Below are positions 25,562-43,397 of a DNA stretch of 45,148 nt, piece by piece. Numbering within the stretch: the stretch's first letter is position 1; each line of letters starts with the position of its first letter. Source of the stretch: Akkermansiaceae bacterium. Lineage in GTDB: Bacteria; Verrucomicrobiota; Verrucomicrobiia; Verrucomicrobiales; Akkermansiaceae. The notes under the pieces were generated by a model. It ran no database searches. It worked only from the letters and a program-made list of their open reading frames with translations, and was not told where the DNA came from. The DNA is taken from assembly GCA_022510805.1 (NCBI GenBank), contig JAFLSS010000001.1, forward strand, positions 59,143-104,290, in the 5' to 3' direction. Both the position numbers and the translations under genes were made by a program.

Positions 25562-26833
25562 TTACTTGGCTGATTTTTTGGGTTTGAGGACAGATTCGCG
25601 CCCCAGCTCCTTGGCCAGTTGCAGCGGTGACTGCCCGGCTTGGTTTTTGGCCTTGGGGTCAGCCCCGGCCTTGATGAGCGCTTGGGCGGCTGCGGCGGCG
25701 TGGGGTTGGGCGGCGGTGTTGCGCAGCAGGAGGTGCAGCAGGGTGTTGCCCTCAGCATCAGTCACCGCGGCATCTGCCCCGGCGGCGAGCAGGGCGCGCA
25801 CCATGCGCGGCTCAGCGGTGCCTCGGCCGCACAGGTCGGCCAGGGCGTTCTCCGGCAAGGCGGCTCCGGCCTTGAGCAGCGCTTGCGCGACCTCGGCATC
25901 CGGGCGCCCTTCAGCGCGGGCGATGACGAGGCGGAGCAGGCCTTCCTCCTTGGCATCTGCCCCGGCGGCGATGAGCTGCGCCACCGCCTCGGCAGATTGC
26001 GCCAGCGCCAGCAGGGAGTGGTCATCCGCAGTGCGGGAGGTAGCGAGGGCGGGATCCTTCTTGAGTAGTTTTTTGAGCTCTTTCCCATCATTGGCTACCA
26101 GGCAGGCCACCAGCAGGGCGTGAGGATCGGCCTCATCCGGTTGAAACCCAAGCGCGAGCAGTAGCCGCGCCGTGGGGAGAGGGGTGGTGTCCCGCAGCAG
26201 GGAGGAGCCATCTTTGCTTTTGAGTTGCAAATTGTAGCCGCGGCGCACAAAAAAGGCGAGGTACTCCGGCGGCACGCCTCCCGGCACATCCAGCAGCACG
26301 CGGTCATTGGGACCGAGCCCATGTGTCTCAACCTCAAGGCGCAGCAGATCCGCCATCTCGCGCAGCCGGCCGGGCTGCGTGACCAGCTCCCACAGCTTGG
26401 CGCGCCGCGCCTCGGGATCACTGAGCCCCTGGGCCTGCGCCTGCTGCTCCTGCAACTCGCGGGAGAGAGTCACCCCGCCGGCAGAGCCGCCGGAGCAGGC
26501 CTCGAGCAGCTCACGCAGAGCGGCGGAGGAGGCGTGCTGCGCTGCCGTCTTGCCCTGCTTGTCGCGCAGCGTCACATCCGCCCCCTGGGCCACCAGATAA
26601 CAGGCCACGAGCCGGTTCCCCTGCTCAGCCGCCAGCATGAGCGCAGACTTGCCCTGCCTGTCCTGCGCGTTGAGCCCTTTGTCGAGAGATTTTAACTTGG
26701 TGAAGAGCTCCGATTTGGCCTCTTTGGCGGATTTGACATCAGGGAAAAGGAGCTCAGCCGCCCCGGGAGCTTGCCAAGCTCCAGCCCATTGAGCGGCTGC
26801 ACACAGCGCGAGCAATGCACCTGCGTAGTTCAT
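25562..26833 (-). CDS. secreted ankyrin-repeat protein
   Basis: 423 residues with a signal peptide (hydrophobic 4-19, cleavage likely near AWQ-AP). Ankyrin repeats are clear near 50-112, with NAQDRQGKSALMLAAEQGN and DKQGKTAAQHA. Further degenerate repeats run from about 190 to the end, including TDAEGNTLLHLLLRN and KNQAGQSPLQLAKELG. Between them is a helical region with an oligo-Gln/Ala stretch. The ATG at 26833 lies seven nt after a good -10. The ligand is unknown. A second and much larger exported ankyrin protein is encoded at 39499-43311. Confidence 0.85.
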   Translation of the reverse strand: MNYAGALLALCAAAQWAGAWQAPGAAELLFPDVKSAKEAKSELFTKLKSLDKGLNAQDRQGKSALMLAAEQGNRLVACYLVAQGADVTLRDKQGKTAAQHASSAALRELLEACSGGSAGGVTLSRELQEQQAQAQGLSDPEARRAKLWELVTQPGRLREMADLLRLEVETHGLGPNDRVLLDVPGGVPPEYLAFFVRRGYNLQLKSKDGSSLLRDTTPLPTARLLLALGFQPDEADPHALLVACLVANDGKELKKLLKKDPALATSRTADDHSLLALAQSAEAVAQLIAAGADAKEEGLLRLVIARAEGRPDAEVAQALLKAGAALPENALADLCGRGTAEPRMVRALLAAGADAAVTDAEGNTLLHLLLRNTAAQPHAAAAAQALIKAGADPKAKNQAGQSPLQLAKELGRESVLKPKKSAK

Positions 26834-39384: not shown

Positions 39385-39413
39385 ATGGTAGCACAAGCCG
39401 GCGCCGATGACAA
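39385..39413 (-). promoter_or_regulatory. pyrC operon promoter
   Basis: On the minus strand, TTGTCA (39408-39413), 17 bp, TACCAT (39385-39390), then seven nt (GCCGCGC) to the ATG. Confidence 0.65.
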
Positions 39414-39498: not shown

Positions 39499-42400
39499 TT
39501 AGGGGGTGTCGAGCTCCTTGTAAAGGGGGAAGACGAGGTGCAGAGCCTTGAGTGCTTTTTTGCATGCATGCGCAATCTCCTCTTCTCTACTCATCATTCC
39601 CTCATAGGAGAGGGCTTCTTCCTCCTCCTTCTTCTCCTCCTTCTCCTCTTTCTCCTCTTCTCTCATTTCTTTATCCTCTATGGAGGAGGGCATGTGGAAG
39701 ATGAACGCAAAGGGCTTGCCGTCATATTGAGTCAGGCCGATGATGTTGGTACCATGGACACGCCCCTCCTCATCGCAGTCGGCGTGGTAGAGAAGCTGTG
39801 CCCGCTCACCGTATCCCTCATACACGGGAAGCGCTTCCCTGAGTGTGGCGGCGGCTTGAGGCGTCAGTTGAGAGTCTTTCCCCAGGATATGCATGATCAT
39901 GCGGATTTCGTCTGATAAGGGGACCCACAGCGAGGAACCCAGCCAAAAGCCGCGCAGGGCAGCAGGCAGCGAGCTCACATTCAGATCTCCGTTCCAGTCC
40001 GACACATTGGCGTTGCCGAAGTTGAGCTCGCGCAGTTCTTCTTGCATGGCCTGCTCACCTATCTCATCAGCCAAGCGTCGGAAATACCATGTGCAGGAGC
40101 TGCGCATGGCCTGCGCGAGATCCATGTCCTCGTTCCATGCTGCGACGCTGAATGGCTCTGTTCTGCTCCGGCGGCGCGTGGTGTTCTCCGGGGTGATGAT
40201 GCCCCGCTTGAGCGCGATGTAGGCCAGCACGAGCTGTATAGAGGCCTGCGGACTGTCGTAGCCGGTGTCCCGGCCGCGCAGCGTCACGGGGTCGTAAACT
40301 GTACATTCCACTCTTTGGCAGGCGAGGACATGCTTGGCGGCCTCGTTAAATGTGTGGTCTAAGTCAATCTGCTGTACGGCAAACGAACCATAGCTTTCAT
40401 GTTCTTTGTGCTCTGCATTGTAGATAAGGCGGTGGTCGAAATCTATGCGAGGAGGGAATTGATTTAGCCTGGCTTGTACGCGAGCGACTGCCTGTTTATG
40501 CTCAGCTAATTCTTCCAGTTCAGCCGGTGAGGGAGCGGGGATTCCTTTTTTCTTGTCCTCCATTTCTGCCTTGGCGTAGAGGGGGATGCTCCGGCGCAGC
40601 TGGTGGAAGGCAATGCTGCGCGCCTTGTTGCCCTCGCTTTCGAGCGTGGCGTCTCTATCATACTCATCATTACCATAGTACCGACACAAGAAGGCGTAGG
40701 ACTTGCCCTCTGCCTCTGTTATGCCCACGATGAGGGTATTTCTCGGGATGTTATTGATGATATACGTATGGTGGAGCATGCGCGCGCTCAGCCCGCCTTC
40801 CTCATACACGGGGAGCGAATTGCGGAGCAGGGCATTAGCTTGAGGCGAGAGTGCGGAATCACTGCCTAAGATGAGCCTGAGTACGCGCAGCTCATCTGCG
40901 ATGGACGCGCGCAGCCCGGAGTGCAACCAGAAAGATTTTTCACAGGATGGGATGATAGTGCCTCGCCAATCACCATACCAGTCCGACAAATCGGCGTTGC
41001 TGAAGCGGAGCGCACGCAGCTCTTCTTTCATGGCAGTTTTGCCGATCTCATTTGCCAGCATGCGGAAATACCAGGTGCAGGACTTGCGCAAGGCCTGCTC
41101 AAGATCCATGTCCATATTCCATTCCTTGACACCGATATGCCTCTCGGGTTGTCTGCGCATGGTGTTTTCCGGGGTGATGATGCCCCGTTTGAGCGCGATA
41201 TAGGCGATGACGAGCGGCATGGAGGCTCCGGGGTTGTAATCATCTGCGGTAAACTCGATATCGCTGATGCCTGTTTCATTTGTTTGCGAGCAGCAGGCAA
41301 TGCCGTGTGCGGACTCGTCGGCAGAGGAATCCCAGTCAATTTGCTGCAAAGCAAAGTCATACAATTCCTCAGCCATCTCTTTATCTCTCTCGAGGGGTAG
41401 TCTGAACATGCGGGTGGGGTGGGTGGTGGTGGCATCTAGCCAGCGCCGGAGGAAAAGCGCGCTGTTGCGCTTGCCTGTATCGGATGCCAGACGTAATGCG
41501 GTCTTGCCCCTTGCATCGGTCAGATGGACATCAGCGCCGGCGTCTCTCAAGATCCGCCATGCGGTCAGATCATCTCTATCGACCAGTTCGTGTATGATAT
41601 AATTCCCGATGTTGTTATGGCAGTTGGGAGCTGCACCCGCACCGAGCAGCAGGCGCATGATATTGCGGTCATTTGCGGCGAAAATCTTGTCTCTTAATCG
41701 TGTCAGGAAGCTCTTTTTCAGCCATGGTAAGTCTTCATATGTGGTTGGGAGCTTATCCAGAACAGAGTGCAGAATAGTTTGGTCCCAGCGGTTGCCGGAA
41801 GTAGCTTCTGATCCGGCAGCAATGAGAAGGCGGCATGTTTCGTAATGCTTCGCCACTGCGGCGTCATGAAGGGCGGTATATGCGAATCTTGTATAATGAA
41901 ACGGAGATGCACCATAACTAAGGAGTAATCGCGTTAGCTCGGGGTCTCCATTGCTCGCGGCTATTTGGAGCGGACAAGTTTCGTCCATTCTATCAGCCAA
42001 TTCAGGATTTGCGCCGTTTTCCAGCAAGAATTGGCATAATTTATAATCTCCACATTCTGTTGCGAATGCGATCGCTGTGCTGAAAATATATGGCGAGTCA
42101 ACCATCTCGCTATCGATATCTGCACCGGCCTCAAGAAGTTCGAGGATGATTTTTTTCCCTTGTTCTATAGATGCATCATCCTCCCAATCCAACATCAGCC
42201 AGACGAAGGAGGGGATGAAATCCATGAATTTGATGTCTTTTTTATCTAAAACATAATCCTCATATAGTTCGTTGAGGTGTTGAAGTTGGACGTCTTTCGG
42301 ATTTGCAGCCAGAAAGGCACTAAGCTCACGGAGCTCGGTAACCTGCCTCTCCTCTTCCTCTGTCTCATCTTCCTGAGGGCTGCTCTGAGCCTTTTTTCCG

Positions 42401-43311
42401 CCTTTCGTGTAAGATTCGGCGCCGTATGACAGCAGATAGTTTAAATCATTCTGGACGACATCCTTGATAAAAGTTTCCACACTCCTGTTTACCTTGTCTC
42501 TGATGCGGAGGACGAAAATATAGGTATCATCGCAGTATCTAAAACCCCCGGATATGCAGAGTGTTTTTTCTGTATCATTGGTGTTGGGGAGGTAGAACAA
42601 AGGCCGCCATCTGAAAGAAAGGGATGACGAAAAGTAGGGTATAGCTTTCTTGAGTGTGGCGGCAGCTTGGGGGGAGAGCTCGGGGGTCTCCCACAGAATC
42701 CGGTGAATCACGCGCAATTCCTCAGCCACTGTGAAGCGCAGCAATGCGTGCGCCCGGGCGCCGCTTTGCTCTCCGGGCGTGGGCGCCTCCTGCGCAGCCT
42801 CAGTCCCGGCAGCCCCGGCTGACTCCTCAGTATGGCTTAAGCCGAGCGCGCGCAGCTCTTCTTCCATGGCAGGTTTGCCGATCTCCTCCGCCAAGCAGCG
42901 GAAATACCAGTCGCAAGCGCTTTGCATAGCCTGCGCGAGATCCATGTCCTTGTTCCACTCCGGATGGGTGGATAAGTCACCATTCGGGTGGCGCGTGGTG
43001 TTCTCCGGGGAGAGGATCCCCCGCTTGAGCGCAATATAAGCTATGACAAGCTGGGATGTGCCCGATGGGGATACATGGGGAATACAAGAATCCTGCCCGG
43101 CACGCCGGATATCCCGGATAAGGTTGATGCCGGTTTCCGAGTAGGGGCTGTTGTCATCAACTTTCTGAAGATATAACTCTAAATGATAGCGCAAGAGATC
43201 CACCTCTCTCACCGCGCTGATGCGCATCTTATTGCATGCTTGGCTCTCCTGTGCCGAAAAGAGACAAGAAGAAACAGCCAGAAAAAGGAAGAGAAAAACG
43301 CGAAAAATCAT
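39499..43311 (-). CDS. secreted protein with three inactive class D beta-lactamase-like domains and an ankyrin block
   Basis: 1270 residues from the ATG at 43311, seven nt after a -10 box. A signal peptide covers about 1-20. Three related domains follow at about 80-300, 690-912 and 1015-1262, with ankyrin repeats at about 375-625 between the first and second. Each domain has AYIALKRGI, WNxDMDLxQA, then WYFRxLAxEIG; the last two add an FGN/FSN and FWL, the order seen in OXA-type class D enzymes. The SxxK motif is replaced in all three (at 1023-1026 it reads ASIQ) and KTG is absent, so hydrolysis is unlikely. A Glu/Lys-rich run lies at 1217-1232. A binding or sensing role in the envelope is inferred. 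Confidence 0.8.
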
Positions 43312-43318
43312 GCGCCCC

Positions 43319-43347
43319 ATTATGTGACGAGACCAAGCTGGTGTCAA
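43319..43347 (-). promoter_or_regulatory. promoter of the pseudo-beta-lactamase/ankyrin gene
   Basis: On the minus strand, a perfect TTGACA (43342-43347), 17 bp, CATAAT (43319-43324), then seven nt to the ATG at 43311. Confidence 0.7.
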
Positions 43348-43397
43348 TGGCAAAGAAGAAGGATTGAGCGCCTTTTTCGTGAAATGGAGAATCCCGG

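Follow-up and report, generated by a model that had tools for sequence, protein, structure and literature searches.

What role can be filled by a protein that carries three domains resembling class D β-lactamases, each predicted to be catalytically dead, together with a block of ankyrin repeats? The question is raised by a 1270-codon gene in the window, by which we mean the whole 45,148-nucleotide stretch of DNA that was analyzed. The source genome is a 2.2-Mb draft in 112 contigs whose genus is most likely Akkermansia. The explanation we propose, to which we give an even chance of being correct, is that the gene encodes a non-catalytic, exported pseudo-β-lactamase scaffold, derived from a clostridial class D gene that was fused to ankyrin repeats and whose product then became catalytically dead and was triplicated.

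Domain organization, modeled fold, and export signal

The NCBIfam model for class D β-lactamases (NF012161) matches the protein in three stretches with a whole-protein E value of 8e-50, at a score of 169 bits that lies under the curated cut-off of 250 bits. Pfam PF00905 (transpeptidase domain) likewise matches three stretches, over its cut-off, and each copy is significant alone in a genome-wide search (Table 1). Pairwise identities of 44% (copies 2 and 3), 35% (copies 1 and 2), and 31% (copies 1 and 3) are far above chance. All three copies are homologous to class D β-lactamases and BlaR1 sensors. Ankyrin models match approximately residues 390 to 615, with Ank_2 reaching 72.7 bits against a cut-off of 27.3. 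An earlier note on this DNA had described three class D-like domains with an ankyrin block between the first and the second, an arrangement that these profile matches bear out. Copy 3 additionally bears a Glu/Lys-rich insert near residues 1213 to 1232.

Table 1. Features of the triple class D gene (window coordinates) and the evidence for each
Feature	Residues	Coordinates	Strand	Evidence
Whole gene	1270 aa	39499..43311	(-)	ORF call, ATG 43311
Apparent N-terminal export signal	1-26	43234..43311	(-)	judged by eye; possible lipobox VSSC
Copy 1, class D-like	27-312	42376..43233	(-)	E 1.6e-11 (genome-wide search), AlphaFold model, PDB matches; most degenerate copy
Ankyrin block	~380-632	41416..42174	(-)	ankyrin model matches; comparison with the genome's ankyrin proteins
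Copy 2, class D-like	641-925	40537..41391	(-)	E 8.4e-18 (genome-wide search), alignment
Copy 3, class D-like	966-1270	39502..40416	(-)	E 2.5e-19 (genome-wide search), AlphaFold model, PDB matches

Structural modeling covered copies 1 and 3, and copy 2 was placed by its sequence identity to copy 3. The AlphaFold2 model of copy 3, which spans residues 966 to 1247 and so stops short of the last helix, has a pLDDT of 75.8 and a pTM of 0.76, with much of the core above 90, and the model of copy 1 has corresponding values of 72.1 and 0.76. For both models the best PDB matches are class D β-lactamases and the sensor domains of BlaR1 and MecR1 (for copy 3, a Foldseek E value of 5e-15 and a Z score of 22.1, with 219 residues aligned at an rmsd of 3.1; for copy 1, 6e-10 and 20.3, with 225 residues at 3.2), and among the PDB matches listed there are class D enzymes and sensors only. 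The class D fold is favored because every row in the alignments of both models is a class D protein. As modeled, then, copies 1 and 3 adopt the class D β-lactamase fold, as the earlier note had supposed.

The open reading frame extends over 39499-43353 (-), where a TTG at 43353 offers an alternative start. We consider the ATG at 43311 to be the most likely translation start because a promoter-like site (TTGACA-17-CATAAT, 43319..43347 (-)), recognized by its match to the consensus, ends 7 nt before it. The 1270 codons that follow are uninterrupted and contain no frameshift. By hydropathy, residues 1 to 26 form the only strongly hydrophobic stretch of the protein, from which we infer that it is apparently exported, either to the periplasm or as a lipid-anchored protein.

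Other promoter-like sites in the window, also identified as consensus matches, lie at 39385-39413 (-) and upstream of 44980 (-) and 26833 (-). The same promoter-near-start arrangement is seen at a pyrC-like gene in the source genome and in several species of the genus (L088, L091, L092, L094, L095). At the sites noticed, the −10 hexamer is separated from the start codon by 6 to 10 nt, and many genes of the genus may thus be expressed from leaderless mRNAs.

Catalytic residues and constraint among the copies

The catalytic motifs, as defined in PMC12389319, were compared in an alignment of 41 class D domains. At the PxSTFK site, copies 1, 2, and 3 read PSGTSQ, PGASMP, and PQASIQ, such that the active-site Ser/Lys pair is replaced by G/Q, A/P, and A/Q, respectively. 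The K(S/T)G of strand β5 is also absent, with LPN, HTY, and HAD at the place of KTG. The alignment thus confirms the earlier observation that SxxK and KTG are lost from every copy. The serine of motif 3 (SxV) is kept in copies 2 and 3 and gone from copy 1, and the valine of this motif has become D, T, and T in copies 1, 2, and 3. Two further landmarks named in the earlier note, FGN and FWL, hold in part. The YGN of motif 4 reads LSH, FSN, and FGN in copies 1, 2, and 3, such that the Asn stays in copies 2 and 3 but FGN itself occurs in copy 3 only, and the FWL of motif 5 is present in copies 2 and 3 but is replaced by ARA in copy 1.

This loss is concentrated at the catalytic positions. Among 22 active relatives (21 clostridial domains and the source genome's own), conservation reaches 90% or more in 65 columns. 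The dead copies retain 1 of 15 positions at the catalytic S, K, K, T, and G, compared with 78 of 165 at the non-catalytic conserved columns (Fisher p 0.002, with copies that are not independent). SxxK is present in all 42 ORFs of the genome-collection scan. The three copies lack the residues of the known class D mechanism, so they are predicted to be catalytically dead. As judged from its motifs and modeled fold, a catalytically impaired class D homologue is the fitting category for the protein.

The gene is known from one draft genome, and selection was measured between its copies. Between copies 2 and 3, dN is 0.58 and dS is 1.49, the latter near saturation, giving a dN/dS of ~0.39. As these substitutions would follow the presumed loss of catalysis, the low dN relative to dS suggests that constraint persisted without catalysis. 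Catalysis was probably lost before triplication because all three copies are without the nucleophile and the lysine, an argument that rests on shared states.

A total of 66 residues are identical across all three copies, and their distribution is uneven. In a 78-residue stretch forming helices α3 to α6, 42 of 77 aligned positions are identical, compared with 24 of 170 elsewhere (p 1e-10), and the omega-loop part has 5 positions common to the dead copies versus ~19 conserved columns in active enzymes. Because the identical residues cluster in α3 to α6 and are few in the omega loop, we read this pattern as selection on the helical part of the dead copies rather than on the cleft. Folding constraint alone could explain the conservation of the helices.

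Distribution, origin, and an active paralogue

Searches with the family model and with the 41-row alignment place class D parts in one of 76 species of the genus, and the other 75 species yielded no class D-like domain with either query. The alignment did produce three marginal matches of ~30 residues in long ORFs of the genus, which may be ordinary penicillin-binding proteins. At the thresholds used, searches of the order (387 genomes) and of the phylum (388 genomes) yielded no further dead copy, and the viral contigs scanned contained no relative. Plasmid sequences gave BlaR1 as the best matches, with no match spanning most of the 1270-residue protein.

Closer sequences are found in Clostridia. 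A scan of 84,980 species' genomes, made with narrow peptide patterns that distant dead copies could escape, recovered 23 loci, 21 of them clostridial and mostly from Lachnospiraceae, all with SxxK and KTG. In 397 genomes of one Lachnospiraceae family, the matching ORFs are mostly ~300 to 385 or ~600 residues long, which are the lengths of single-domain enzymes and of BlaR1. Among the best 30 of these loci, all full-length matches have SxxK and KTG, the exceptions being matches truncated at the end of the locus or divided between reading frames (L134, L144, and parts of L121 and L130). A second class D-like ORF on the opposite strand adjoins the clostridial class D gene at L034:6731-7897 (-), L045:6710-7831 (-), and L050:6663-7715 (-), and such a second ORF also adjoins the gene at L122, L126, L134, and L139. 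This opposite-strand ORF may encode a BlaR1-type sensor, and its counterpart in G739 has 642 residues.

The source genome contains a second class D protein, encoded on another contig (C96, L013:2956-5229 (+)). It has 757 residues with an apparent export signal, and its single class D domain, flanked on both sides by ankyrin repeats, has an intact active site (STFK, SCV, YGN, FWL, KTGTGG). A 475-residue ankyrin gene (L013:1532-2959 (+)) overlaps the start of this gene by 4 nt, which suggests translational coupling. Contamination of the contigs was considered and judged unlikely. On C96, a thymidylate-kinase-like gene is matched in 70 of 76 genus genomes, and the triple class D gene adjoins the pyrC-like gene, matched in 73 of 76; because these neighbors are common across the genus, both loci appear to belong to it.

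A tree computed with the catalytic SxxK and KTG columns removed unites the dead copies in one clade (support 100/100). These copies, the active paralogue, and ten Lachnospiraceae-type enzymes make up a 14-row group (94/99). Trees that instead place the dead copies (p 0.0057) or the active paralogue (p 2e-5) with class D enzymes from the bacterium's order are rejected. The position of the active paralogue beside the dead copies, which form long branches, has low support (29/43). Among the ankyrin proteins of the source genome that were compared, the closest to the ankyrin block of the dead protein is again the active paralogue, which agrees with a shared ancestor in which ankyrins and a class D domain were already joined. 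The simplest reading of these comparisons is that a class D gene was transferred from gut Clostridia, which we regard as likely. The GC3 of the triple class D gene is 0.62, and that of its ankyrin part 0.51, against 0.73 to 0.85 for the other window genes measured, values that fit foreign or fast-evolving sequence.

Other ankyrin genes were noted in this genome. On contig C13 (L014:3523-13099 (-)), four long ankyrin-repeat genes are arranged in tandem, and several of them encode apparent export signals. The window encodes an ankyrin protein at 25562-26833 (-) (423 residues from ATG 26833) that likewise has an apparent export signal, and a promoter-like site lies at its ATG. Also in the window is a GH109 gene whose product is close to PDB 6t2b.

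Possible functions and comparison with known systems

The order of events that we infer begins with the entry of a class D β-lactamase gene of gut Clostridia into this Akkermansia lineage, where it would have been joined to ankyrin repeats. One derivative would have retained its active site and become the present C96 protein, and the other would have lost the catalytic Ser, Lys, and KTG before its class D domain was triplicated. Ankyrin repeats are protein-binding modules. In the scaffold that we propose, the ankyrin block would offer a protein-docking surface and the three dead domains would serve as binding modules, such that the protein may tether envelope proteins to one another (perhaps the active paralogue or penicillin-binding proteins) or may bind a ligand without turnover. 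The active protein is possibly a binding partner, and an attractive candidate for one; what links it to the dead protein is kinship and presence in one genome, and nothing else. A more specific version, in which the protein is a multivalent envelope adaptor that works with, and perhaps controls, the active ANK-class D enzyme, is decidedly tentative. If true, it would describe a new kind of cell-envelope adaptor.

The earlier note had drawn an analogy with the sensors BlaR1 and MecR1, and several PDB titles matched by the copy 3 model are indeed acylated BlaR1 and MecR1. The sensor domains of these proteins act through acylation of the SxxK serine. The analogy did not survive closer comparison, in that no copy has the Ser or Lys of SxxK, the 1270-residue protein gave no Pfam match to an M56 peptidase up to an E value of 1, and hydropathy revealed no strongly hydrophobic stretch after the signal that could be a transmembrane helix. 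A BlaR1-like mechanism is unavailable because the acylatable serine, the transmembrane signaling part, and the peptidase are all absent, and a BlaR1-type sensor was rejected. Binding of peptides or of peptidoglycan, which the earlier note had raised, is possible. A sensor or sink of another kind, whose dead domains bind peptidoglycan stem peptides or β-lactams without acylation and relay or buffer a signal, we regard as unlikely. It would make use of a penicillin-recognizing fold in which motif-3 Ser and FWL remain in copies 2 and 3, and tandem copies would increase avidity, but the KTG strand, which forms one side of the cleft, has been replaced in every copy, the residues common to the copies cluster away from that strand, and the protein has neither a transmembrane nor an output domain.

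Secreted ankyrin proteins have been proposed for Akkermansia and suggested to act on the host (PMC10540074). The triple class D protein could accordingly be a secreted member of a set of exported ankyrin proteins that has expanded in this lineage, facing the host or competing bacteria, with class D domains as stable filler or interaction units. The several ankyrin genes of the source genome, some with apparent export signals, are in keeping with this, as are the occurrence of class D parts in one species of 76 and the site upstream of the pyrC-like gene, which varies across the genus. The possible lipobox, which argues for retention in the envelope, weighs on the other side, and we hold this explanation to be improbable as well.

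Still less probable is a decaying gene, in which a duplicated β-lactamase fusion has lost its function and is being eliminated. Decay would account for the loss of every catalytic motif, the long branches in the tree, and a GC3 below that of the neighbors; it is difficult to reconcile with 1270 open codons free of frameshifts, the dN/dS of copies 2 and 3, conserved runs of identical residues, and a promoter-like site at the start. An unusual enzyme using other residues of the same fold is very improbable, since despite the motif-3 Ser and omega-loop FWL that persist in copies 2 and 3, the 66 common residues are mostly structural and include no apparent conserved new nucleophile-base pair.

The exported scaffold thus remains our preferred reading, and it can be set against known systems. 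BlaR1 and MecR1 have fold and detectable sequence similarity in common with the dead copies but retain the acylated Ser and Lys, transmembrane helices, and the M56 peptidase, of which the 1270-residue protein has none. Clostridial class D enzymes (CDD-1 and CDD-2 of C. difficile, and Lachnospiraceae enzymes with PCSTFK...KTGM) resemble the dead copies in fold, kinship, tree placement, and apparent export signal. These enzymes are single domains with SxxK, SxV, YGN, and KTG, whereas here three copies without SxxK and KTG are combined with ankyrins.

Across ~25,000 class D-family sequences, SxxK, SxV, and KTG are near-perfectly conserved, with several small clusters showing impaired motifs (PMC9045261). 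These pseudo-DBLs and impaired homologues (clusters 12, 13, 29, 35, 36, 45, and 54; YbxI, BAC-1) combine the class D fold with impaired motifs or low activity and in this respect resemble the dead copies. The sequences of that survey are, however, very homogeneous in size, and it lists no ankyrin fusion or multi-copy class D protein (PMC9045261). Above 350 residues, the survey lists only class C fusions, sequences with N-terminal extensions, and a single crotonase fusion. The earlier statement that no protein of this architecture had been described is therefore fair. Dead class D domains as such are no novelty, inactive single-domain homologues having been described already; what is new is the combination of three dead copies with ankyrins, an architecture not found in the literature or genomes searched and made from known ingredients.

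A gut bacterium has seemingly acquired an antibiotic-resistance fold and converted it into a component that is non-enzymatic and present in several copies, and loose profile matching in resistance-gene annotation would label the dead protein a β-lactamase. A further comparison lies in the same genome. The C96 protein has an apparent export signal, ankyrins, and class D sequence as the dead protein does, but in place of three dead class D copies it has a single one whose active site is intact, and with this pairing of active and dead forms the route from enzyme to pseudoenzyme can be tested.
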